From IMG/VR virus record IMGVR_UViG_3300007734_000891, positions 1 through 27,752 of that record: 27,752 nt of DNA; one strand, given 5' to 3'. The stretch's first letter is position 1. Every line of letters begins with the position of its first letter. The notes below the pieces were generated by a model. That model was not told the DNA's origin and did not search any database. It saw nothing but the letters and a program-made list of their open reading frames with translations. Both the position numbers and the translations under genes were made by a program. Below are positions 674-27,497 of the stretch, piece by piece. This DNA comes from a virus.

Positions 674-1387
674 CTAGGTGTCCGATTTGGCCAACCGAAG
701 CTTGGCTTGCGCCACAAATTTACCATGGCGAGCGATTGCCACCGATGCCTTGCGCGGGCTGGCCCCGCCGTCACAGTAGCCGCATTCGTCGCAGGTAATC
801 GCGTCACCGCGCACCCATTGCGGGCAGGCAATTTCGCCGTGCTCGTTCTTGCCACGCCACGGTGCGGCATCGGCGGGAAGATGCCGGAAACTGCGGCCGC
901 CAAGCGCGCGAATTTCTGCCACGTCCGCCAGTGTGTCTGCGGAACCCATCAGGCTACTGAGAAGATCGGGACGCGTCCGCCAGCCGTGGGTGTACCCGAG
1001 CGGTTGATCTGCCCCAGCTGCGGCCAGTGCCGCGGAAACCGACTGGTAAGCCGCCGCGGGGATAGCCGATGGGTCGCCAATGGCGGTCCAACGCGGGCGA
1101 CGTCCGCCCACGGCACGCTTGAGATGTGACGTTGTCGCGCGGATCTTGCCGACCACCATGCCCGCCCGCCCCTCCCAGGCGTAGCACACCTCGCCAACGT
1201 TGCGCGCCGCTTTGAGCGCGGCCGGCGCGATGTTCGCGGGCAATAAAACGCAGTCGCCGCACACTTCACGCGCCCCACCGCTGGCCGGCACGATCCAGAT
1301 TTGCGCCATGTCGCCGATCTTGCGATTCTTCGACTTAGAGTCTTGAAGCCAGACGATCGCCCGATCGTCGCGGTACAATTCCAACAT
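674..1387 (-). CDS. Cysteine-rich phage protein resembling the mycobacteriophage gp88 family
   Basis: This 237-aa protein starts at the ATG at 1387, behind AAGGTGG on the minus strand. Near residues 18-50 it has NRKIGDMAQIWIVP followed by a CGDC motif (C43, C46), then a CYAWEG motif at C68. A second cluster, CPQW...CDECGYC (C188, C199, C202, C205), lies near the C-terminus. From memory, this arrangement (K-x-G-x-M-x-Q-x-W-I, CGDC, CY, then CP...CxxCxxC) is that of a widespread phage family named after mycobacteriophage gene product 88. The paired cysteines suggest metal or iron-sulfur binding, but the biochemical role of the family is not known to me. It is the first gene of a leftward unit with its own strong promoter at 1424-1452, which suggests it is an important early product. 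Confidence 0.8.
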   Translation of the reverse strand: MLELYRDDRAIVWLQDSKSKNRKIGDMAQIWIVPASGGAREVCGDCVLLPANIAPAALKAARNVGEVCYAWEGRAGMVVGKIRATTSHLKRAVGGRRPRWTAIGDPSAIPAAAYQSVSAALAAAGADQPLGYTHGWRTRPDLLSSLMGSADTLADVAEIRALGGRSFRHLPADAAPWRGKNEHGEIACPQWVRGDAITCDECGYCDGGASPRKASVAIARHGKFVAQAKLRLAKSDT

Positions 1388-3422: not shown

Positions 3423-4145
3423 ATGGCGAGGGCGAGCGCTGCCGCAAGGTTGGCCGACGTTGACGGCATGCTACGTAGAGGCACGCAGGAAAGGGAGAAC
3501 CCCAGCTCGAAGCCTGTTGCCGAGAGGAAGCCTGTTTTTGACTTGGACGCGCTGAACCGTGGCGCGCAGGCTGGCGACGGCCTCAACTCGCTAGTGCGGG
3601 CTGGCCAAACGACCGACGAGCACGCCCGCGAAGTGGTGAGGTGGTGGCACAACCGCGGAGCTGGGGTGTCGCAAATCTGTCGGATCACGACGTTGAGCGC
3701 ACCCGAAGTGCAACGCCACCTAACGGCACTCGCCCGCGAACTCGGCCCGCTCGAACCCGAGACACGCGACGAACTGTCGACGCGACTGCAAACGCAACTC
3801 GACCAGCAGCGCTGCCAACTGCAAGACCTCGCCGAGCACGCCGACAAGCCAGCCGACCGCATCGCCGCCCACCGCGCGCTACTTTTGCTAGCACGCACCC
3901 ACGCAGACATTGCCGGCCTACACCGCACCCAAGACACCGAGCTCGCCCGCAGCATCGAAGCCCTACTCGCCCACGACGGCACCACACGCGTCGCTATCGC
4001 CATCGAGCACGCCCAAGCCGACGACAAGCGCCACGCCGACGAAGGCGCACGCCTGCACCGCTCGCAAGCCGCCGCCGAGCGCAAGCACTACCGCCCCGCT
4101 ACGAATCCGAGCATCGACGCCCCCGCAGACGACGCCGATCTGTAG
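3423..4145 (+). CDS. DNA-binding-like protein with a helix-turn-helix segment; possible small terminase or regulator
   Basis: This rightward gene precedes the repeat-rich region. I chose the ATG at 3423 (240 aa) because GGGAAAGGGAAA precedes it. The frame is open back to an ATG at 3261 (294 aa), but that start lacks a ribosome binding site and overlaps the leftward promoter. Counting from 3423, residues about 68-105 (VVRWWHNRGAGVSQICRI, TTLSAPEVQRHL) read like a helix-turn-helix of the kind seen in small terminases and recombinases. It is followed by a long charged helix (RLQTQLDQQRCQLQDLAEHA) and a helical part ending ARTHADIAGLHRTQD, a pattern I associate with terminase small subunits. The C-terminal 60 residues are charged and low-complexity. 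It could bind the repeats at 4469-4765 as TerS, an origin-binding protein or a regulator; this is inference. Confidence 0.6.
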   Translation: MARASAAARLADVDGMLRRGTQERENPSSKPVAERKPVFDLDALNRGAQAGDGLNSLVRAGQTTDEHAREVVRWWHNRGAGVSQICRITTLSAPEVQRHLTALARELGPLEPETRDELSTRLQTQLDQQRCQLQDLAEHADKPADRIAAHRALLLLARTHADIAGLHRTQDTELARSIEALLAHDGTTRVAIAIEHAQADDKRHADEGARLHRSQAAAERKHYRPATNPSIDAPADDADL

Positions 4146-4254
4146 CATCGCGACACGCGAAGGCCACCGACCAGCAGGCTAGCCCGCGGCACACGCCCGC
4201 CCCACTGGCCAGCGCACCCGCCAATCGCACGCACCCCGCCAAAAAAATTTTCTC

Positions 4255-4368
4255 GCTCGCTTCGCTCGCTCGGGTTGCAGTTACGCACTGCAACCCTGCA
4301 TACGCTGGACTATGAATTAGCGGCTGAAGTAGTCGGGAAAACACCGCCTTTCTGCTCGCTTCGCTCGC
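4255..4368. repeat. Pair of 15-bp direct repeats GCTCGCTTCGCTCGC
   Basis: Identical copies lie at 4255-4269 and 4354-4368, 99 bases apart. The first directly follows an A7T4 tract and precedes the GGGTTGCAG hairpin; the second is flanked by CT and AG. On the minus strand the unit reads GCGAGCGAAGCGAGC, which contains the compact GC-GAA-GC mini-hairpin motif. Confidence 0.6.
4272..4296. other. Perfect 9-bp hairpin (GGGTTGCAG / CTGCAACCC)
   Basis: The arms 4272-4280 and 4288-4296 are perfect complements around the 7-base loop TTACGCA. No T-run follows in the rightward direction. In the leftward direction the nearest T-run (4247-4241) is about 20 bases away, so this is not a standard intrinsic terminator. 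Part of the left arm and loop (GTTGCAGTT) recurs at 4523-4531. Confidence 0.55.
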
Positions 4369-4468
4369 AGTTGGTAGTACGGGAGGCGGCCCGAATAGAT
4401 GGTTGCGGTGTCACGATGATAGCCCTCTCGCCACTTGTACCAAAAAAGCGTTTCAAAACGGGTAGTCT

Positions 4469-4765
4469 GAATAGTTTGCCTCCAAAATGACGGGTTATGA
4501 TCAAACCCTTCATTTTTTTCCTGTTGCAGTTCGCACACTTTGACAGGTTTGACGGGTTTGAATAGTTTTTGGGTAAGGAACCCGTTCCGTGTGCGCGCCC
4601 GCCTGCCTCAGCAGAAACTCCTATCAAAAACCCTTCAAACCCTTCAAACCCTTCAGCAGGAACACGGCTGTTCCCGCACCCTCGGCCTGCAACCGGGGGC
4701 AATCACTGGTTAGTTTTGCGCTGAAGGGTTGCGCGGGGGTGCTGACGGGTTTTGGGAAACCCTTC
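4469..4765. repeat. Iterated 9-bp repeats in two mirrored tandem triplets plus scattered copies
   Basis: The forward unit AAACCCTTC occurs as three perfect tandem copies at 4628-4654 and singly at 4503-4511 and 4757-4765. The reverse-complement type (GAAGGGTTT) occurs as a degenerate tandem triplet GACAGGTTT-GACGGGTTT-GAATAGTTT at 4542-4568. Single reverse-type copies are at 4469-4477 (GAATAGTTT), 4489-4497 (GACGGGTTA), 4723-4730 (GAAGGGTT) and 4744-4752 (GACGGGTTT). Each triplet is followed within 4-8 bases by a GGAAC/GTTCC dyad (4577-4588; 4659-4674). Such repeats are usually binding sites for an initiator, terminase or partition protein. Confidence 0.75.
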
Positions 4766-4799
4766 ACAACCTGTCAGCGGGCTGGCGGGCAGGCCAGAG

Positions 4800-4834: not shown

Positions 4835-5308
4835 ATGGACGCTTTCAAGTCGGTTCCGCCGTGGGAGATAGTGGACAACCAGATATTCGGGTTTCGCTCG
4901 GATTTGGGGTTGTGGTTCAAGGGGTTGTTGGACGCGAGCACGGATGACACGTTGCCGTTTGCGCAGCACTGCTTGGGCATGGACGCAGACGTGAGGTCGA
5001 AGGTGGGGCCGCTGGTTGAGTTCTTGGGCCGGGTTGGGGATCATCGGTTGGCGAAGGAGCATCGGCGGTCGGCGGAGCTTTTGCGGGAGTTTCTGGCCAG
5101 TCCGCCACTTCCGGCTGAGGTTGCCGAGGAGGTGGAGCCGCTTGTTCCGCCGGTGACGCTTCACAACTGGCAACGCACACTGGTCAGGCTCAAGAAGGGG
5201 TTGCGGGAGGCGGCGGCGCAGGGCATGGAGCGGCGGGCGAGGAAGCACAAGAACCGCAGTCAGTTGCAGATCACGGTGCCGAAGAGTGAACCGGAGCAGG
5301 TGGCGTAG
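4835..5308 (+). CDS. Unknown protein directly upstream of TerL (157 aa); possible small terminase or packaging accessory
   Basis: The gene starts at the ATG at 4835. Only AGGG one base before it could serve as a ribosome binding site, while a -10-like TACTCT is placed as for a leaderless message. The product begins MDAFKSVPPWEIVDNQIFGF. A helical middle (FLGRVGDHRLAKEHRRSAEL) and a basic C-terminus (RRARKHKNRSQLQ) follow, and a Pro/Glu-rich linker lies near residues 88-105. The stop overlaps the GTG of TerL (TAGTG), so the two are translationally coupled. Position suggests a TerS or packaging accessory, but I see no clear helix-turn-helix. Third codon positions are mainly G here, in contrast with the C-rich TerL. 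Confidence 0.65.
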   Translation: MDAFKSVPPWEIVDNQIFGFRSDLGLWFKGLLDASTDDTLPFAQHCLGMDADVRSKVGPLVEFLGRVGDHRLAKEHRRSAELLREFLASPPLPAEVAEEVEPLVPPVTLHNWQRTLVRLKKGLREAAAQGMERRARKHKNRSQLQITVPKSEPEQVA

Positions 5309-7080
5309 TGGTCTCCAACTTCGAGGGCCAATGGGTCAGCAACCAGCGGCACGACGAGGTCATCAAGGAGCTCGAGCGGAGCAAGTCCGACTTCTTCTAC
5401 TTCTGCTCGATGTACCTGCGCATCATCAACCGCGACTTTCGGCCTAAGAATGTCGGTGAGTTCGAGGAGTTGACGATCTCCCAAGACGAGGTCCCGCTGC
5501 TGGCCAAGAAGCCCGAAGCGTGGATCACGCTCAAGCCAAACGCAGCGCAGAAAGCGGTCATCAAGTCCATCGAGTGCAACCCGGTCACCTACGTCCTCAA
5601 GCACCGGCGCGGCGGCATCTCAACCATTTGGAAGGCTTGGGTATTCTGGCGCGTTCTGTTCGAGCCAGGCGCTGCCGGCGCGACGATTTGCCACCTCGAA
5701 GAGTCCAGTCGCGAGATGTTCTCCGAGGTTCGCCGGTGGTACGAGGAGTTGCCGCCGTACTTCAAGGCGGGGCCGCTCAAGTTGCGCACCGACCGCGCCA
5801 ACGTCATGGAGTTCGAGCATGGCGGCCAGTACCGCGTAGGCACGCCAGACACGTTCCGCGGCGGCAAGACGCTAACCTACCGCCACTACTCCGAGTTCAG
5901 CGCCTACGAGCGCCCCGAAGAGGCCATTTCGGCGGTCGAAGGCGGCTCATCGACCTTTGGCGTGGCGCTCTACGAAACGACTGCCCGCGGGTTGGGCTAC
6001 GCCCACGACTGTTGGCGGACCCCCAACGGCTGGTCGAAGCTCTTCTTCCCGTGGACCCAAGACCGCAAGTACCGGCGCGACCGCTGGCCTGCTGCCGTCC
6101 CCAAAACGCTGCGCGAGGACACCGACTTCCGCAAGTACTGCGACACCCACAACCTCGACGACGGGCAAATCAACTGGCTGGGCGGCAAACTTCACGCATT
6201 CGGCACCAACTGGGCGCAATTCAACCAAGAGTACCCGGCGACCGCCGAGTTGGCCTTCATCGCCAGCAAGGGGCGCGTCTTCACGGTCGGGTTCCCCGAT
6301 GCCAAAATCACCCGCGGGCGTATGCAGTACCTGCAACCCGACGACTACCGCGCCTACACACTGGGCGCCGACCCAGCTGCCGGCGGCGCAGAGGGCGACT
6401 TCTCGGCCTACGTCGTCCTAGACGTCACCTTCCCCGACAAGCCGATGATTGCCGCCACCTACTACGGCAAGCCGACCGTTCCCGAGTTCGCAGAACTGGT
6501 GCTGGCCGAGGCCAAACGCTACAGCGCGCTCATCGTCCCCGACCGCAAGGGCATCGGCCTCGACCTCGTCAACCGCCTGCTTGACCACGGCTACCCCTCA
6601 ATCTGGCGGGACGTCCTGCGCGACCGCGTTGGCGACCAAGCCACCGACCGCATCGGCTACGACATCAACGTGCGCACCCGCTCAATCTTGACCAACAAGC
6701 TGATCGAGTTCATCAACGGCGGCAAAATCGAAATCGTCGACGAGCGGCTACAGTACGAAATCAACGACTTTCACTACAACGACGACCGCCGCCCCGAGCA
6801 TCTCCCCGGTTGCCACGACGACATACTGTTCGCACTGGCGATGGCGATGGTTGGCAGCAGCCAGAAGCACGCCCGCGAGCGCACCCACTTCCGCGCGCGG
6901 CCCGTCACGTTTGACCAAGTGCGCATCTTTCGCAAGGTCACTGGCAGGCTCGAGAGTGAATGCCAGTTCGACGACGACGACGGGCTACTGGACCGCGCCG
7001 ACCACGGCATCGCCAGCGTCTGGGACGAACTGGACGGCTACGGCGCAAGCCGCGTTTTGGGCGCTCTCAACGCCGCTTGA
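5308..7080 (+). CDS. terL: Terminase large subunit (DNA packaging ATPase and nuclease)
   Basis: This 590-aa protein pumps DNA into the prohead through the portal and cuts the concatemer. It starts at a GTG behind GGAGCAGGTGG and overlaps the previous stop. The N-terminal ATPase has a Walker A-type loop, LKHRRGGIST (residues 97-106), of the K-x-R-x-x-G-x-S form used by many terminases, and a Walker B-like YRHYSEF (191-197). QEYPATAELAF near 307-317 is a typical terminase segment. The C-terminal RNase H-like nuclease shows GADPAAGG (D355), IVPDRKGIG (D412) and GCHDDILFALAMA (D504/D505), the usual three acidic sites. Length and domain order are normal. The C-terminal 70 residues are acidic and less conserved-looking. 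Certainty of function is high. Confidence 0.95.
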   Translation: MVSNFEGQWVSNQRHDEVIKELERSKSDFFYFCSMYLRIINRDFRPKNVGEFEELTISQDEVPLLAKKPEAWITLKPNAAQKAVIKSIECNPVTYVLKHRRGGISTIWKAWVFWRVLFEPGAAGATICHLEESSREMFSEVRRWYEELPPYFKAGPLKLRTDRANVMEFEHGGQYRVGTPDTFRGGKTLTYRHYSEFSAYERPEEAISAVEGGSSTFGVALYETTARGLGYAHDCWRTPNGWSKLFFPWTQDRKYRRDRWPAAVPKTLREDTDFRKYCDTHNLDDGQINWLGGKLHAFGTNWAQFNQEYPATAELAFIASKGRVFTVGFPDAKITRGRMQYLQPDDYRAYTLGADPAAGGAEGDFSAYVVLDVTFPDKPMIAATYYGKPTVPEFAELVLAEAKRYSALIVPDRKGIGLDLVNRLLDHGYPSIWRDVLRDRVGDQATDRIGYDINVRTRSILTNKLIEFINGGKIEIVDERLQYEINDFHYNDDRRPEHLPGCHDDILFALAMAMVGSSQKHARERTHFRARPVTFDQVRIFRKVTGRLESECQFDDDDGLLDRADHGIASVWDELDGYGASRVLGALNAA

Positions 7081-20201: not shown

Positions 20202-23147
20202 ATGGGCCGCATCTTGCTTCCAATCGACCCGGCCGGCATGGGCTACCAGCGGCAGAACCACGACTACGTTTCGACGTACCAGTCGCCGTGGGCGCAGGTT
20301 GGCCCACACGTTCTGGTCAACACGGCGATCCCGCTGGCGGGGCAGGCGCTCAACGCTGGCATCACCAGCGCGGCCAATGCCTACAACAAGAGCGAGTTTG
20401 AGGCCAACCAGCGGGGCATCAACGACGCGGCCGACCGTGCGCCGGCAGACCTTGCAGCGATGCGAGGTGGCCAACCGGGTGGGCGCCAAGACGCTGCACC
20501 GATGGAGCGTAGCCCGCGGGCTGCTGCGGCGTCGGCGTTCGGTGGGGAGCCGTCGCCAGTTGCTGGCTACGGCGGCATCGAGCGCGGCGAGTACGCGCAG
20601 TCGCCGCACATGCAAGAGCGCCAGATGCAACCCTCCGCGCCGCCTGACCCATCGGACTACGAGGCGTGGGACGCATACCAGCGGGCGAACGGTCGGCCAG
20701 ACTGGAACGGGGCTTCACGGTTGGCTACCCAACCGCCCACGCCTCGGGTGCCAGTGGTCGCACCGGGCTATGGCGCGATGGGTTCTGGTCCGAGTGCGCC
20801 AGAGGCAGGCAACTACTTTGGGGTGCAACCGCGGGAGGCTCAACCTGGCGATTTGCCAGCAGAGCGTCCGGGCGGCATGGATTCGTTGTGGCCAGAAGGT
20901 GCGCCTGCGGTCAATGACGTCACGATGAACCACGGTGTCATCGACCCTGAGACGGGCGAGCCGATGCAACTTGCCGCAGGTGGCCCATTTGGCGCACTGT
21001 TGAAGCGTGGGCGAACTGTCATGAAGGCGGTTCAGCGTGGCGCGCGAGCGCAGGCAGCACACGAAGCTGCGAGCGCAGCTCCTGCCGCTGTTCGGCAGAA
21101 TGCGGTCAAGACTGCGATGGACCAAGCGGGTCACGAATTGCAGCGTGAGTACGTTCCCACACCTCGGGCACCAACAACGAAGCCACCATCGCTCCCCAAC
21201 ACCGGGGTGGCCCCGCAACCGTCGCCACAACTAGATGCTGCATACACTGCGCGCCGCGCTGCTGCTGAGGAGATGTCGCGGGCGAGCGCCCAGAACCCGC
21301 TCAATGCTGGCGCTGGTGACATTGACGTCAACGGGTTGGTGCCTGGAACTAAACCGACCCCACAAGGCCGGTCTGTCCCTGCTCCGCAACTGCTTGGCCC
21401 CAAGAACTTTGAGCCAGATCTGCGTTCCGGCGTCGAAGTGCCTCGCGGGAGTGCGCTACCAACTGGCGCCGCTGGTCACGCCCAAGACATTTCGGACTGG
21501 GCAACCGCGGTTCGTCAAGGAGAAGCCACTCTTGGCGGACAAGCCCAGATGCTGGCAAAGAAGGCGCAACTCGCCGCCGCAGTTCGCGAAGAATGGGACG
21601 CGCTGACCTCGCGCCGCCTGCTTGGAAACCCAACGGAGGCGAGCGCAGCCAAGGCAGTCATGGCGGGTAACCCGTCGCCTGCACAGATGGCCGTCGTCGC
21701 AACGCGGTTAAAAACGCTTGGCCAGATCAAGAAATTGGGTGCCGCTGCCGCTGCCATTGTCGGCACCGGAGCAGCAGTCAGCGCGCTGTCTGCTGGTGAC
21801 ACCCCGGCGGGTGGTGCTGCTGGGCGCGGCGTTTCTGGCGAAGTCCCAAGTGGCACTCCAACGCTTGGCACGGCCGACCACCCGCCAGACATCGACTTTT
21901 CCGCCTTGGCGGCACGGGCAAAGGCGATGGCGGCCGAACCTGGCGATGCGTCGGCACCGACCGCTGCCGCAAGCTCCCACATCGGGAAACCAGCGACGCA
22001 CGCTACTGCCCGCGCGGAGTCTGCAAGCGAGTGGGTCGACCGCAATACGCCAGACGTCGCCGCGCCGCCTCCCAACGAGGTTCGCACCGTCGCGGCTCCC
22101 GGCACGCCAGAGGCAGAACAGGCCAGTGGCATGCCGCACGCTCAACCGCGGCAGTTGCTCGATCCACGCAAACTGCATTCGTACCAGCAGATTATGAATG
22201 CCGCTGCGCTGGCGCAGACGCCAGAGGAGAAGGCGCAAGTGCTCGCGGCAGCCGAACGCAGTGGATTACAGGATGCGCCGGCCGAATCGTGGCTCGACGT
22301 CATCAACCCACAGGAGCGAACCAACCGCGGCTTCGAGACTGTTCGCAGCCACATGCGGGCTAAAGCGGCAGACCCACTGGCTGAAATCCGGGCGCAGAAC
22401 TACGCCAGCGAGATTGCCCATCGCGAGGAACTTAACCGGGCGTCTCGCGAAGGGTCGGCTGCTCGCGTCGCTGGGGGTGCCATCAAGCAGGCGCAGGCGC
22501 AGTATGAGCCCGCCAAGCAAGAGGCCACGGTCGGCATGGAACAGGCGCGGCGTACGAAGTTGGAGATCGACAATGAGACGGAGCGGGCGCTTCGGTCGGC
22601 TGGGTTGCAGGAAGGTCAAGCCAAGGCGCTGATTGCAGCGCAGGACGCCCGCGACCGTGGCGACATGAATAGCGCCAAGATGCTGATGGAGCGGTCACTT
22701 GCTGGTAAGTCGATCCAAGAGGCGAAGCAAATCATCGAACTGATGCCGGGCCGCAAAGACCTGCTGCGGGCGCAGACTGGCTATTATGATCGGTGGGAGC
22801 CGTCGTCTGTCAACATTGGCGCGCGCGAAAAGGTGGAGAACCGCAAATCGTCCGAGGCCGCGTTCCGCAAGGCGTGGGACCAGAACCAGTTGGTGCAGGG
22901 TGCGCTCGCCGCTGTCAAGGACATGAAGCCAATCGACGCCATCGCGTGGTTCAGCGAAGACCCGGTGAAGCGCGGCGGTGCGCTCAAGGCGCTTGGACTC
23001 AAGGACGTTGCTGACCAAGCGACGGTCGACGCCTTCAAGCGCAAGGCGCCGGGAGTGGCGGCATCGTTGGAACGGGAGCGCGCCATCATCGAATCGGCTG
23101 GCGGCAGCGTCGACGACAAGGGCGTGATCCACTGGCCCACGGAGTAG
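20202..23147 (+). CDS. Large internal virion (ejection) protein, disordered plus coiled (981 aa)
   Basis: The AGGAG overlapping the previous stop serves the ATG at 20202. Residues 1-500 are low-complexity and rich in Pro/Ala/Gly, with the short motif NHGVIDPETGEPMQLAAGG near 244-263. A hydrophobic glycine/alanine segment at about 505-530 (LGAAAAAIVGTGAAVSALSA) could span a membrane. Residues about 640-720 form a second linker. Residues about 725-860 are a long charged coiled coil (EIAHREELNRASREGSAARV and following), and the C-terminal 120 residues are helical. A disordered, coiled protein with a potential membrane segment, next to a giant neighbour, fits proteins ejected ahead of phage DNA to build a channel through the envelope. 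No lysozyme motif is seen. The role is inferred from layout and position. Confidence 0.65.
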   Translation: MGRILLPIDPAGMGYQRQNHDYVSTYQSPWAQVGPHVLVNTAIPLAGQALNAGITSAANAYNKSEFEANQRGINDAADRAPADLAAMRGGQPGGRQDAAPMERSPRAAAASAFGGEPSPVAGYGGIERGEYAQSPHMQERQMQPSAPPDPSDYEAWDAYQRANGRPDWNGASRLATQPPTPRVPVVAPGYGAMGSGPSAPEAGNYFGVQPREAQPGDLPAERPGGMDSLWPEGAPAVNDVTMNHGVIDPETGEPMQLAAGGPFGALLKRGRTVMKAVQRGARAQAAHEAASAAPAAVRQNAVKTAMDQAGHELQREYVPTPRAPTTKPPSLPNTGVAPQPSPQLDAAYTARRAAAEEMSRASAQNPLNAGAGDIDVNGLVPGTKPTPQGRSVPAPQLLGPKNFEPDLRSGVEVPRGSALPTGAAGHAQDISDWATAVRQGEATLGGQAQMLAKKAQLAAAVREEWDALTSRRLLGNPTEASAAKAVMAGNPSPAQMAVVATRLKTLGQIKKLGAAAAAIVGTGAAVSALSAGDTPAGGAAGRGVSGEVPSGTPTLGTADHPPDIDFSALAARAKAMAAEPGDASAPTAAASSHIGKPATHATARAESASEWVDRNTPDVAAPPPNEVRTVAAPGTPEAEQASGMPHAQPRQLLDPRKLHSYQQIMNAAALAQTPEEKAQVLAAAERSGLQDAPAESWLDVINPQERTNRGFETVRSHMRAKAADPLAEIRAQNYASEIAHREELNRASREGSAARVAGGAIKQAQAQYEPAKQEATVGMEQARRTKLEIDNETERALRSAGLQEGQAKALIAAQDARDRGDMNSAKMLMERSLAGKSIQEAKQIIELMPGRKDLLRAQTGYYDRWEPSSVNIGAREKVENRKSSEAAFRKAWDQNQLVQGALAAVKDMKPIDAIAWFSEDPVKRGGALKALGLKDVADQATVDAFKRKAPGVAASLERERAIIESAGGSVDDKGVIHWPTE

Positions 23148-23150
23148 CCG

Positions 23151-26100
23151 ATGGCTGAACCTGTTGGGCTTGGCGATAGACTGCTCCGCGGTGGCACCCG
23201 GTTGCTCACAGGGCTCCCGTCCGCGCCGCTCGCGTTGGGCGCTGCGGCTGGCCGCGTCGCCGCCTCGGAGTTGCCCGATTCGGTCCAGCAGTGGTTGCAG
23301 TCGCAAACAGGCTTGCCCGCACAGAGCAAGGGTCTCCTGACCACGGCGGCGCGTCAGTATTTCGATGATGCGCGCGACCCGGCCAAAGACAACGTCCCGT
23401 TTCTGGAGTCTGCGCAGGCCAACCTACAGGGGCTATCCGCGGGCCTGTGGTCTGCTGGCGAGTTCACACTCGGCATGCATGATTACCCAGGCGACGATCA
23501 ACCGATCGACTGGTCCCCATCGGGCATTCAGCGCGAGGTTGAAAACTGGGGGAAGGGGCGCATTGCCGCCGCGACGCCGTTGGCCTCGTCTGCTGTTGGC
23601 GTTCCGCTCGCGTTGACAGCATCGTTGAGCCAAGACGCCCAGCGTGCGGCCGGCGCGCACTCGCTAGGCGAAGCGTGGCAAGAGGGCACCCGCACAGTTC
23701 GCGCCAAACCGGCAGACGTCGCAGCCACGTTCAGCCCACTGGCTGGCAAGGCAGCGCGCAGCATGACAGGCGCGCTTGCAGGCGGCGACCGTGCGGTGCT
23801 GGTCAACAGCGAACCGTTGACGCGCCCCGTTGGCGAAGGCACCCCGACCCGCGGGTTGGCGGGTTGGTCGCGGGCCACTGGCTTGCCGGCTGAACCAGTG
23901 GAGGCTGCGCTGGCGCCCGAAGTGTTGCCGGTGGCGCGGCAGATGGTTCGCGACGGTTTGATCACTGGCGCCGAGGCAGCGGCGACGCTTGAGAAGATGT
24001 TCCCGTGGAAGTCACAGATGCAGGACGCGGCGGTCAAACTCGCCAAGCCAGCGTTTGAGGTTGGCCAGCGAGTGGCTGGCAACGCGGCGCAAGGGGCGTT
24101 GGTGCTGGGCGAACCGTTTGGCGTCGGGGTCGGCGCAGCGGTCGGCGCGCTGGCACCCGAAGCTGTGCGCGCCTTCATGCGCTACCTTGGCCCTGAGAAG
24201 ACGGCGACAGTGATCCGCAACATTGGCGGTCGCGGCAGTCGTTACCAGCAAGGCACGCCAGAGGAGACTGCGTTTGCCCGCGAAGTGGTGGAGAACACGC
24301 ACGCCCGCGGTGAGGGTATCGGCAACCTGGGCGCGGCCATCGGTGGCGAACTTCTACGGGAACAGCCCGCGCGGTCGACGACCCCTACTGGCCAGATCCC
24401 ACTCCCGCCAGTGGAGACTGCCCAGCGCGAAGTGGTTGTCACGCCAGAGGGGGTGCCGGAGATCCGCCGTGACGCCTTCCGGGTACGGCAGGCCGCGGCA
24501 GATGCAGCTGAGTTGCCACAACGGCGCGCGGAAATAGAAGCGGCGCCAGAACTGGCGAAGCGGTTGGACATGAGCGACCCGGCCGCCGTCCCGGCGATGG
24601 ACGCTTTGACCAACATGGAGGCGGACGCCAAGGTGCGCCGCGGCCAGATTGGCAACTCGCAGGCGGCGTTCGACCGGCAGCAAAAGCTCACGAAACGCAA
24701 CCTGCGTCGGCCCATCGCCAACGAAACGACGTCCCCCTCGTACAACGCGGCGGCAGACGAAATGGCGGCACTGGCTGGTGACGTTCACTCCGATGTGCCG
24801 GCGCACTGGTGGCGCCGCGCGCCGCTTGAGCCGTTGCTTGACCCGCAGTCGCCTACCATGTTCCGCAGCGCCCGTGTGCGTGGTGCGCTAATCGCCAAGA
24901 TCACTGAGAAAATGCCCAAAGACCAAGCGGCGAAGTTGGCGCCCTTGCTCGATGCGGAAATGGTCAAGATGAGCGGGGAGTCAATCGGGCCCCGACCGCA
25001 GAGCGCGGCGTACAAATTGCCCGACGGTCGCATCGTCGACTTGAATGTCGAACTCGGGCGCCTGCCGCGCGAGTTTGCTAACCCTGAGCAACCAGGCATG
25101 TTGACCCGCGCCTACCACAGCGTGTTCCACAAGCCGATGCCACCCGCACCATCGGTCTACCAGCACATGCAGGCGGAAGCAGTCGGCCAGAACTACCGCG
25201 CCTACGGGTTGAAGTATGGCGAGGCCAAGACCGCCCAACTTATCGAAGCCGAGGCCAACCGTACCGGCGGTGGTCTAGACAAAGCCGTCGGTGACACACT
25301 GGCTAAAGGCATCGCCCGTGAACACTTGGCGGGCAACATGCGCCCGCAAGCGCTGTACGCCGACCCGCGCATCGCCGCCGATGCGATCACCGCTGACCCC
25401 GCGGGGCACGGGTTGACGCCCGACCAGGCCGAAGCGTTGGCCAAGGACTTGAAGACCAACTACGTCCCGACGCCGCAAGTGACCTCTGCGTTTCTTGCTC
25501 GCGCCGCCGAAGAGAAGCACATCACCAGTGGGGCTCCGCCGTTCATGCGCGCCGGGTTGGCATCGGCACTTGAGGAGCACTTGTCGGTCAACTACATGAA
25601 CGACTTCCTGAGCGCGCAGGAATCGGCCATGACCCGCGCCGGTCGGTTCGCCAAGCAGAACCTGACCGCGCTGTCGATTGGCGCCAAGGTAGCCAACGAC
25701 ACCGCCAACGCGACGTTGCAGTACCTGAGCCGCGGGTTGCGGCCCGACATCTACGCCAAGGACGTGCTTGCGACCGCCGACCGTTGGAAGGCCATTTCGC
25801 AGGGAGCGCCCGCGTCGCCCTACGAGTTGCAGCGGCAGCGGTCGATCCTCAAGACGGGCAAACTTGAGACTGACATGCTGTCGGTGGAGGCCAAGCGGCA
25901 GATGCACTTGGGCCCCGGCTCGGGTGGTCTGCTCAAGAAGGGCGTGCAGTTGATGCGCCAAGCGTACTCGGCCAGCGACTTGTACCCCAAGTTGGAAGAG
26001 ACGATCCACAACTACGACCGCATGTTTCAAGAACTGGGGCAACTGCAAGACGGCAAGAAGTACACCACACTGGTCGGGCCCAACGTCGTTGCGACGTTCG

Positions 26101-27497
26101 AGCGCAAGAATGGCGTCTTGGAGCTCAACGGCAAGCCGCTGACGCCAGAGGCGGCCAGCGACGTCGTCGCGCGGGCGGCTATCCAGCCAGCGTTGGAGAA
26201 GTTGGTCGACCACGGCGATGTCAACCGTATGGTGTCGGCGATGCGCCGCGGTGGTTTGGGCGGCATCATCGGCGTGATTGCGCCGTTCTTGACCTGGCGC
26301 TGGGCGGTGACTGACATTCCCGGTCTCAAGAAGGGCATCCTCGGCGCGGCGTTTGACGGCGGACCGTCGATTTGGACCGACGACCCAGTGCTGGCTCGCA
26401 AGCAGTGGACGGACGCCGTGAAACTGACCACCCGCCGCGGGGCCCTGACTGGCATGGCCTACGGCGCACTGGCCGACCACACCGATGACGAGTTGCGGCG
26501 CACTTTCGGGCGGGCCATGACGCCAGTGGTGCGGGCACTTGAGGGTGACCCATTGGAAGAAACAGTCTACGACCTGTCGCGGTCGGACTGGATGGCACCG
26601 AGCATCGCGCTGTTCCGGCTGGGCTCGACGGCGGCGTGGCAGCTGCGCTTCGGCCTGACCAACTGGGAAAAGCAGGCGTTCCCCGAGCTCAAAATGGGCG
26701 ACGTTGGAGACCCCGCGAAGGGCGACCCAAAAGTGCTGCGGGCGTGGACCCACATCAACACTGGCAAGTCGAGCGTGCAAGACGCCCTTGAACTGGTCGG
26801 GTTTGGCGGCGGCTTGGCGGCACCAGTGCTGCGCGAATACTTCAAGCCGAGCGGTGAAGGCGACTGGAAGGCAGCGGCGTGGGGCATGAGCCGCGCCATT
26901 GTCGGCGGCACGCCAAGCGATGCGGTCAACATCGCGCTGGCGTCGGTGCTGCCCAAGGCGTCGAGCCGGCGCATTGAACGCATGGGCCAGTGGGGCGAGA
27001 CAGGCGGCGAGATCCACAGCGACTACAAGATGGAGGACATGTTGGGCTTCGTGTTGCGTCGCACTCTTGGTGTCGGTATCCGTTCGACCAATTCGCTGTC
27101 CGAGGCCAATCACTTCATCGACCAGGCGCAGGTGCGCTTGGAGAAAGAACTGGTCGGCAACTTGGACAAGTGGGCGTCGATTGCGGCGGCTGACTACGCG
27201 AACCTGTCGCGCACTGAGCCAGTGGGGTCGCCGAAGTTGGCCGACGCCCGCGGGGAAATGGAACGCCTGATGGTGGCGTCACAGATCGCTAAGGCCCAAG
27301 TGAACTTGGCGGTCAACCACTATCGCGAGCGGTTGGCGCACTTCTTGAACGTACGCAAGTCTGCCATCACTGACCCGTCGGTTGACCCAGCCGAGGTCGA
27401 AAAGGCCAAGGCGGCTGGCGAGAAAGCGGCAGACGACTTGTTGCTTGACGGCAGCGAACCAACAACGGAAACTGCGCCTGCGGAGGGTACACCATGA
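23151..27497 (+). CDS. Giant internal virion (ejection) protein with polyvalent-protein-like C-terminal region (1448 aa)
   Basis: Starts at the ATG at 23151, with GGAG six bases before it, three bases after the previous stop. The N-terminal 400 residues are Ala/Gly-rich and helical with amphipathic stretches (LLTGLPSAPLALGAAAGRVA near residues 17-36). Residues about 620-800 are charged and helical. Residues about 835-1060 (KQNLTALSIGAKVANDTANA, AYSASDLYPKLEETIHNYDR, GGIIGVIAPFLTWRWAVTDI) look like the large polyvalent protein-associated domains found in giant phage virion proteins. The final 350 residues are helical and end in an acidic tail. No transglycosylase Glu motif or protease triad is obvious. 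It resembles T7 gp16/N4-type ejection proteins by size and position only. The stop overlaps the next start (ATGA). Confidence 0.7.
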   Translation: MAEPVGLGDRLLRGGTRLLTGLPSAPLALGAAAGRVAASELPDSVQQWLQSQTGLPAQSKGLLTTAARQYFDDARDPAKDNVPFLESAQANLQGLSAGLWSAGEFTLGMHDYPGDDQPIDWSPSGIQREVENWGKGRIAAATPLASSAVGVPLALTASLSQDAQRAAGAHSLGEAWQEGTRTVRAKPADVAATFSPLAGKAARSMTGALAGGDRAVLVNSEPLTRPVGEGTPTRGLAGWSRATGLPAEPVEAALAPEVLPVARQMVRDGLITGAEAAATLEKMFPWKSQMQDAAVKLAKPAFEVGQRVAGNAAQGALVLGEPFGVGVGAAVGALAPEAVRAFMRYLGPEKTATVIRNIGGRGSRYQQGTPEETAFAREVVENTHARGEGIGNLGAAIGGELLREQPARSTTPTGQIPLPPVETAQREVVVTPEGVPEIRRDAFRVRQAAADAAELPQRRAEIEAAPELAKRLDMSDPAAVPAMDALTNMEADAKVRRGQIGNSQAAFDRQQKLTKRNLRRPIANETTSPSYNAAADEMAALAGDVHSDVPAHWWRRAPLEPLLDPQSPTMFRSARVRGALIAKITEKMPKDQAAKLAPLLDAEMVKMSGESIGPRPQSAAYKLPDGRIVDLNVELGRLPREFANPEQPGMLTRAYHSVFHKPMPPAPSVYQHMQAEAVGQNYRAYGLKYGEAKTAQLIEAEANRTGGGLDKAVGDTLAKGIAREHLAGNMRPQALYADPRIAADAITADPAGHGLTPDQAEALAKDLKTNYVPTPQVTSAFLARAAEEKHITSGAPPFMRAGLASALEEHLSVNYMNDFLSAQESAMTRAGRFAKQNLTALSIGAKVANDTANATLQYLSRGLRPDIYAKDVLATADRWKAISQGAPASPYELQRQRSILKTGKLETDMLSVEAKRQMHLGPGSGGLLKKGVQLMRQAYSASDLYPKLEETIHNYDRMFQELGQLQDGKKYTTLVGPNVVATFERKNGVLELNGKPLTPEAASDVVARAAIQPALEKLVDHGDVNRMVSAMRRGGLGGIIGVIAPFLTWRWAVTDIPGLKKGILGAAFDGGPSIWTDDPVLARKQWTDAVKLTTRRGALTGMAYGALADHTDDELRRTFGRAMTPVVRALEGDPLEETVYDLSRSDWMAPSIALFRLGSTAAWQLRFGLTNWEKQAFPELKMGDVGDPAKGDPKVLRAWTHINTGKSSVQDALELVGFGGGLAAPVLREYFKPSGEGDWKAAAWGMSRAIVGGTPSDAVNIALASVLPKASSRRIERMGQWGETGGEIHSDYKMEDMLGFVLRRTLGVGIRSTNSLSEANHFIDQAQVRLEKELVGNLDKWASIAAADYANLSRTEPVGSPKLADARGEMERLMVASQIAKAQVNLAVNHYRERLAHFLNVRKSAITDPSVDPAEVEKAKAAGEKAADDLLLDGSEPTTETAPAEGTP

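Follow-up and report, generated by a model that had tools for sequence, protein, structure and literature searches.

The described sites that come closest in plan to the one analysed here are found in phage P4, a satellite, whose cis sites serve an SF3-type initiator, the alpha primase-helicase. The type 1 repeats of P4 crr form two facing groups, one at 4314 and 4323 (+), the other at 4366 and 4384 (-); crr lies 46 bp 3' of the alpha gene, and the annotated P4 ori is located away from that gene. In SaPI and SCCmec elements, too, a self-loading initiator helicase binds short iterons through its C-terminal domain: SaPI Rep in this way recognises iterons directly 3' of its own gene, SCCmec Cch2 behaves like SaPI Rep, and a two-hexamer model was proposed (PMC7581432). 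Repeats beside terminase genes are described for the pac site of SPP1, where sets of direct repeats lie around the start of terS, and the DNA-binding domain of the SF6 small terminase shows little sequence preference for pac repeats (both PMC4737164).

The stretch of DNA analysed in this work, which we call the window, is the whole of IMG/VR record IMGVR_UViG_3300007734_000891, a linear, incomplete virus contig of 27,752 bp. As in P4 ori and crr, it bears several groups of facing iterons with 9-bp spacing; unlike them, it does not use the GGTGAACAG type of iteron, and, whereas crr adjoins its initiator gene, the window site has no adjacent one. The SaPI and SCCmec sites lie directly 3' of the helicase gene and their iteron sequences differ from that of the window. 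The window site shares with SPP1 pac its position beside terminase genes, but SPP1 pac consists of direct-repeat boxes, and facing 9-bp arms are not described in the available part of PMC4737164. An earlier note on this DNA knew of no described phage site with exactly this plan. That view does not stand, given P4 crr, with its facing 9-bp-spaced iterons beside a primase-helicase gene, and the iteron origins beside the SaPI and SCCmec initiator helicases (PMC7581432).

Layout of the array and its surroundings

The array is housed in a 690-bp intergenic stretch, 3' of a rightward gene for an HTH-like protein. The features of the region are as follows.

677..1387, minus strand: leftward early-type gene, phrog_2554; Mycobacterium phages jiawei and Bongo have its relative close to the right end of the genome
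3423..4145, plus strand: all-helical protein, weakly matching an HTH of the IclR/ArsR type, possibly a regulator or a terS-like protein
4440..4540: block with the highest AT content in the region (0.59; the record as a whole has 0.35)
4468..4477, plus strand: degenerate unit TGAATAGTTT, a variant identical to the innermost unit of arm A
4488..4512: single facing iteron pair (4488 plus; 4503-4512 minus)
4541..4568, plus strand: arm A, the left half of the main mirrored pair, with the three 9-bp iterons TGACAGGTT-TGACGGGTT-TGAATAGTTT in tandem
4569..4627: spacer of 59 nt that separates the arms (measured in the same way, that of L048 has 60 nt)
4577..4588: dyad GGAACCCGTTCC, within the spacer, of doubtful significance
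4628..4655, minus strand: arm B, which faces arm A and consists of the iteron GAAGGGTTT three times in perfect tandem
4659..4674: dyad GGAACACGGCTGTTCC, on the outer side of arm B, of doubtful significance
4722..4776: 2x2 facing iteron group in an imperfect inverted repeat (4722 and 4743 plus; 4757-4766 and 4767-4776 minus)
4835..5308, plus strand: small protein directly 5' of terL, a candidate small terminase by position only
5308..7080, plus strand: terL, terminase large subunit (phrog_2, E 6.5e-23)

Both triplets reported in the earlier note were found where it had placed them: the three perfect AAACCCTTC units at 4628-4654, which read GAAGGGTTT on the minus strand, and the degenerate, opposite-facing GACAGGTTT-GACGGGTTT-GAATAGTTT at 4542-4568 (+). 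Its count of at least six further single copies in both orientations is likewise borne out by seven units outside the triplets, at 4469 (+, variant), 4489 (+), 4503 (-), 4723 (+), 4744 (+), 4757 (-) and 4767 (-), some of them in an inverted repeat (4741-4754/4765-4778). In all three main mirrored groups (1x1, 3x3 and 2x2) the plus-strand units stand to the left of the minus-strand units.

The best core of the units is TGAMGGGTT, exact copies of which occur nine times in the 27,752-bp record, 9/9 within 4488-4766. With at most one mismatch, 11 copies are present in 290 bp, compared with a maximum of three in 60 Markov copies, and a de novo search for the best 9-mer ranks this core first (11 copies versus six in five shuffles and nine in one). 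The window has a single mirrored tandem arrangement with period 9, and such an arrangement was met in 3 of 400 Markov copies of the window sequence. The 9-mer of the earlier note, GAMGGGTTT, gives 17 matches with one mismatch, 9.3 being expected, and all seven exact copies fall in the region. The observation of an ordered array holds.

It is conceivable that slippage produced a 9-bp tandem, as in the intergenic TTTGAAGGG arrays of Bacteroidota, and that the rest of the pattern is coincidence. Indeed, three tandem GAMGGGTTT units were met in 36 stretches of genome contigs, most of them one-orientation Bacteroidota arrays. The window copies, however, are dispersed, mirrored and present in both orientations, at a density far above that of the shuffled sequences, and unrelated phages repeat both the plan and the variant unit; a chance minisatellite is accordingly very improbable. 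Exact three-unit arrays in genome contigs were also considered as relatives of the window site, and were rejected as mostly Bacteroidota minisatellites devoid of the mirrored plan. One-orientation, intergenic 9-bp minisatellites of the TTTGAAGGG type (L004-L039) were seen in several Bacteroidota groups (Saprospiraceae, Chitinophagales, Bacteroidales).

The core of the spacer (4572-4624) has an AT content of 0.38, compared with 0.35 for the record, and hence is not AT-rich; the AT-rich block at 4440-4540 might act as the unwinding element. No GC-skew switch supporting an origin was found, the skew minimum lying away from the site. As to the GGAAC/GTTCC dyads, which had been proposed to cap the two triplets, both are present, at 4577-4588 and 4659-4674. 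They do not form symmetric caps, since the first lies inward of arm A and the second outward of arm B. Dyads with arms of 5 bp also turn up all over the window (about 3.2 per 300 bp, five being present here), so that the idea of caps is unsupported. The single facing pair forms a stem (4484-4516) with a T run after it, which is scored as an intrinsic-terminator-like hairpin as well. An RNA hairpin as the functional form was considered and set aside: the region folds better than shuffled sequences, but arm mismatches were not compensatory by eye. Rfam and tRNA scans were empty. The same intergenic region contains GCTCGCTTCGCTCGC direct repeats at 4254-4296 and, at 4354-4368, a perfect 10-bp hairpin, GGGTTGCAGT-TACGC-ACTGCAACCC, near an A/T run, which is possibly a leftward terminator.

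To the right of terL, a major head protein and a P22-type portal are encoded. Homology searches with the window proteins identified no terS, and no relatives of the 3423-4145 protein were found in phage records. The two flanking proteins could be modelled with low confidence only (pLDDT 54 for the first and 46 for the second), and no usable result came from fold searches with the first. Pfam scans found no SF3 primase-helicase gene among the ORFs of the window, the record being a fragment; no partition genes were noticed among the window proteins scanned against Pfam. The left flank of the array consists of small leftward genes, the phrog_2554 gene among them. Relatives of its product (677-1387) occur in Mycobacterium, Gordonia and alphaproteobacterial phages, and are encoded close to the right genome end in both that were examined. 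In the 1.9-kb non-coding right end of phage Bongo (L045:3557-3853) there are six TTTGACCTG-like 9-mers, shuffled sequences having three to four. Farther along the window, at 20202-27497, 3' of the structural genes, two proteins are encoded that are very large (981 and 1448 aa), have no Pfam or PHROG match and could be virion-internal.

A repressor or activator, for example the HTH protein of 3423-4145, might bind the array and control the packaging or the early operon. The intergenic position, the dyads nearby, the HTH-like protein encoded immediately 5', TTGACA-like hexamers in arm A and the one terminator-like stem would all fit such an operator or promoter array. A promoter scan, however, revealed no sigma-70-type promoter within the arms, and in other genomes the arrangement tracks replication initiators, not regulators; we consider regulation of this kind quite unlikely to be the main role of the site.

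Mirrored iterons in other viruses and at SF3-helicase genes

The pattern of two facing arms was first found in one contig, L048, and a generalised pattern was then run on 2.9 million IMG/VR contigs. Mirrored arms with the sequence and spacing of the window occurred, besides the window itself, only in L048, L049 and L050. The window and these three share the unit TGA(A/C)GGGTTT and have their arms in facing order with about 60-75 nt between them; the unit of L049 and L050, TGACGGGTTT, is that of the window, and the degenerate innermost unit TGA(A/C)TAGTTT of the window's arm A recurs in one arm each of L048 and L050. Searches for close relatives through terL, the 4835 ORF, the portal and the major capsid protein in IMG/VR, and through terL in GTDB genomes, found none. 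By blastn the region had no match in phages and chance-level matches only in plasmids, and nothing of the window kind was seen when iteron clusters were sought near terminases or genome ends of distant phages.

All three of these phages encode SF3 initiators. In L049 the gene combines D5_N, NrS-1 HBD and DUF5906, in L050 VapE and DUF5906, and in both the arms overlap or directly follow its 3' end; the order in L050 is VapE, iterons, TerL. The L048 record has a D5_N, DUF5906 and NrS-1 HBD gene and two homologous mirrored sites, both away from that gene. One is 5' of a leftward operon of recombination/replication-type genes. The other, in which TGAATAGTTT units recur, lies directly 5' of a terS-like gene and terL, and the window site is its positional counterpart. 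Two homologous mirrored iteron sites, in opposite orientation and at the two borders of the early block, were observed in IMGVR_UViG_3300033463_000465 (L055:4227-4380 and L054:2787-2884); they share spacer sequence around TTACATATATACGCG, and one of them is directly 5' of terS-terL.

Prophage loci from 150-200 Pseudomonadota genomes per family were surveyed for facing tandem repeats with periods 6-14. Only period 9 was strongly enriched. Mirrored tandem 9-bp iterons were present at 13 of 22 VapE loci and 13 of 30 DUF5906 loci, and the window passes the same scan (period of 9 bp, arms facing each other with 25-130 nt in between). VapE and DUF5906 loci coincide in some cases, so that the 26 of 52 are not all independent; counted once, they make 22 sites. 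In 19 of these the distance to the stop codon of the helicase gene is -35 to +93 bp; broken genes or a mistaken choice of ORF may account for the other three. No such iterons were found at 30 terminase loci, a control that comprises one family (PF03237) in one phylum, nor, at period 9, in shuffled loci. The 9-mer itself varies from locus to locus. These results suggest that VapE and DUF5906 genes across Pseudomonadota are commonly accompanied by the facing 9-bp plan of P4, each lineage having its own 9-mer.

Among Bacillota loci with NrS-1 HBD genes, the strict 9-bp test was passed by 4 of 19 only and TGAMGGGTT was present in none, though by eye many have facing repeats and an AT-rich spacer just 3' of the gene; the arm pattern had no match in 399 Bacillota genomes. 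Facing iterons with lineage-specific 9-mers were recorded at the 3' end of VapE, DUF5906 and D5-type genes (L056-L077, L108-L137 and L158-L176), in Pseudomonadota and in some Bacillota.

These comparisons bear directly on a role in packaging. At a pac or cos site, the small terminase would bind units flanking a cut in the spacer, as proposed for the repeat-bearing SPP1 pac. The array is directly 5' of the terL cassette, one copy in the L048 phage is 5' of terS-terL, leftward early genes lie on the left, the phrog_2554 product has a relative encoded near the genome end in Mycobacterium phages, and SPP1 pac, too, bears its direct-repeat sets near a terminase gene, around the terS start. On the other hand, mirrored 9-bp iterons are absent from the 30 terminase loci of the control and present at 26 of 52 SF3-helicase loci (not all independent), L049 and most prophage loci have the site at the stop codon of the helicase gene, and the DNA-binding domain of the SF6 small terminase is barely selective for pac repeats (PMC4737164). 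Packaging initiation is therefore an unlikely function, which nevertheless keeps some probability because the window site and the second copy of the L048 phage are just 5' of terminase genes. The earlier suggestion of a protein-bound array at an origin, a packaging site or a partition site stands best for the origin, which is well supported by comparison, and is weakened for packaging by the terminase control.

A probable iteron origin for an SF3 initiator

The window element is probably an iteron replication origin, or one of two cis sites as in P4, for an SF3 initiator of the D5/VapE/DUF5906 type. This reading is the most likely one because the same layout adjoins replication-helicase genes in many other phages and prophages. 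The plan, moreover, is that of P4 crr, and SaPI Rep and SCCmec Cch2 bind iterons 3' of the helicase gene, which makes an iteron origin of an SF3 initiator the best-supported interpretation. The initiator itself would be encoded by the phage outside the 27.7-kb fragment.

In the mechanism that we propose, the C-terminal DNA-binding domain of such an initiator would bind the 9-bp TGAMGGGTT units, and the facing arms would place two helicase hexamers head to head, flanking the spacer of about 59 nt. DNA nearby would then melt, and the two helicases would move apart. What the sequences show is the array, its mirrored plan, its company with SF3 genes in other phages and prophages, and a relative that has such a site 5' of its terminase; the initiator of this phage, and binding, melting and helicase loading at the window site, are inferred.

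Several features speak against an origin: the record, itself incomplete, has no SF3 gene, the spacer is not AT-rich, no initiator gene is adjacent, no GC-skew switch supports it, and the arrangement was scarce in the Bacillota loci and its arm pattern absent from the 399 Bacillota genomes. The sites at prophage VapE, DUF5906 and D5 genes and those of L048-L050 have period 9 and facing arms in common with the window, with a spacer of about 60-110 nt; nearly all VapE/DUF5906/D5 sites, however, are found at the stop codon of the initiator gene, and the spacer is AT-rich in most of them, neither of which is true of the window site. Location directly 3' of the initiator gene is not strictly defining, since neither P4 ori nor either site of the L048 phage is next to that gene. 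In view of its misfits (AT content of the spacer, lack of an SF3 gene, position at the terminase), we regard the window site as a variant that would act like an SF3-initiator origin, rather than as a proven member of the class.

A separate possibility is that such phages have the same element at each border of the early block, the two copies being inverted, and that it serves both the start of replication and the hand-over to packaging; the window would hold the terminase-side copy. We regard this arrangement as rather improbable.

If the origin interpretation is right, mirrored 9-bp iterons would place origins in orphan and metagenomic phages from sequence alone, and would predict a D5/VapE-type initiator even when its gene is off the contig. 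As each lineage appears to have a different 9-mer, the specificity of initiator for iteron becomes directly testable. Facing iterons at SF3 genes may also allow systematic mapping of prophage origins.
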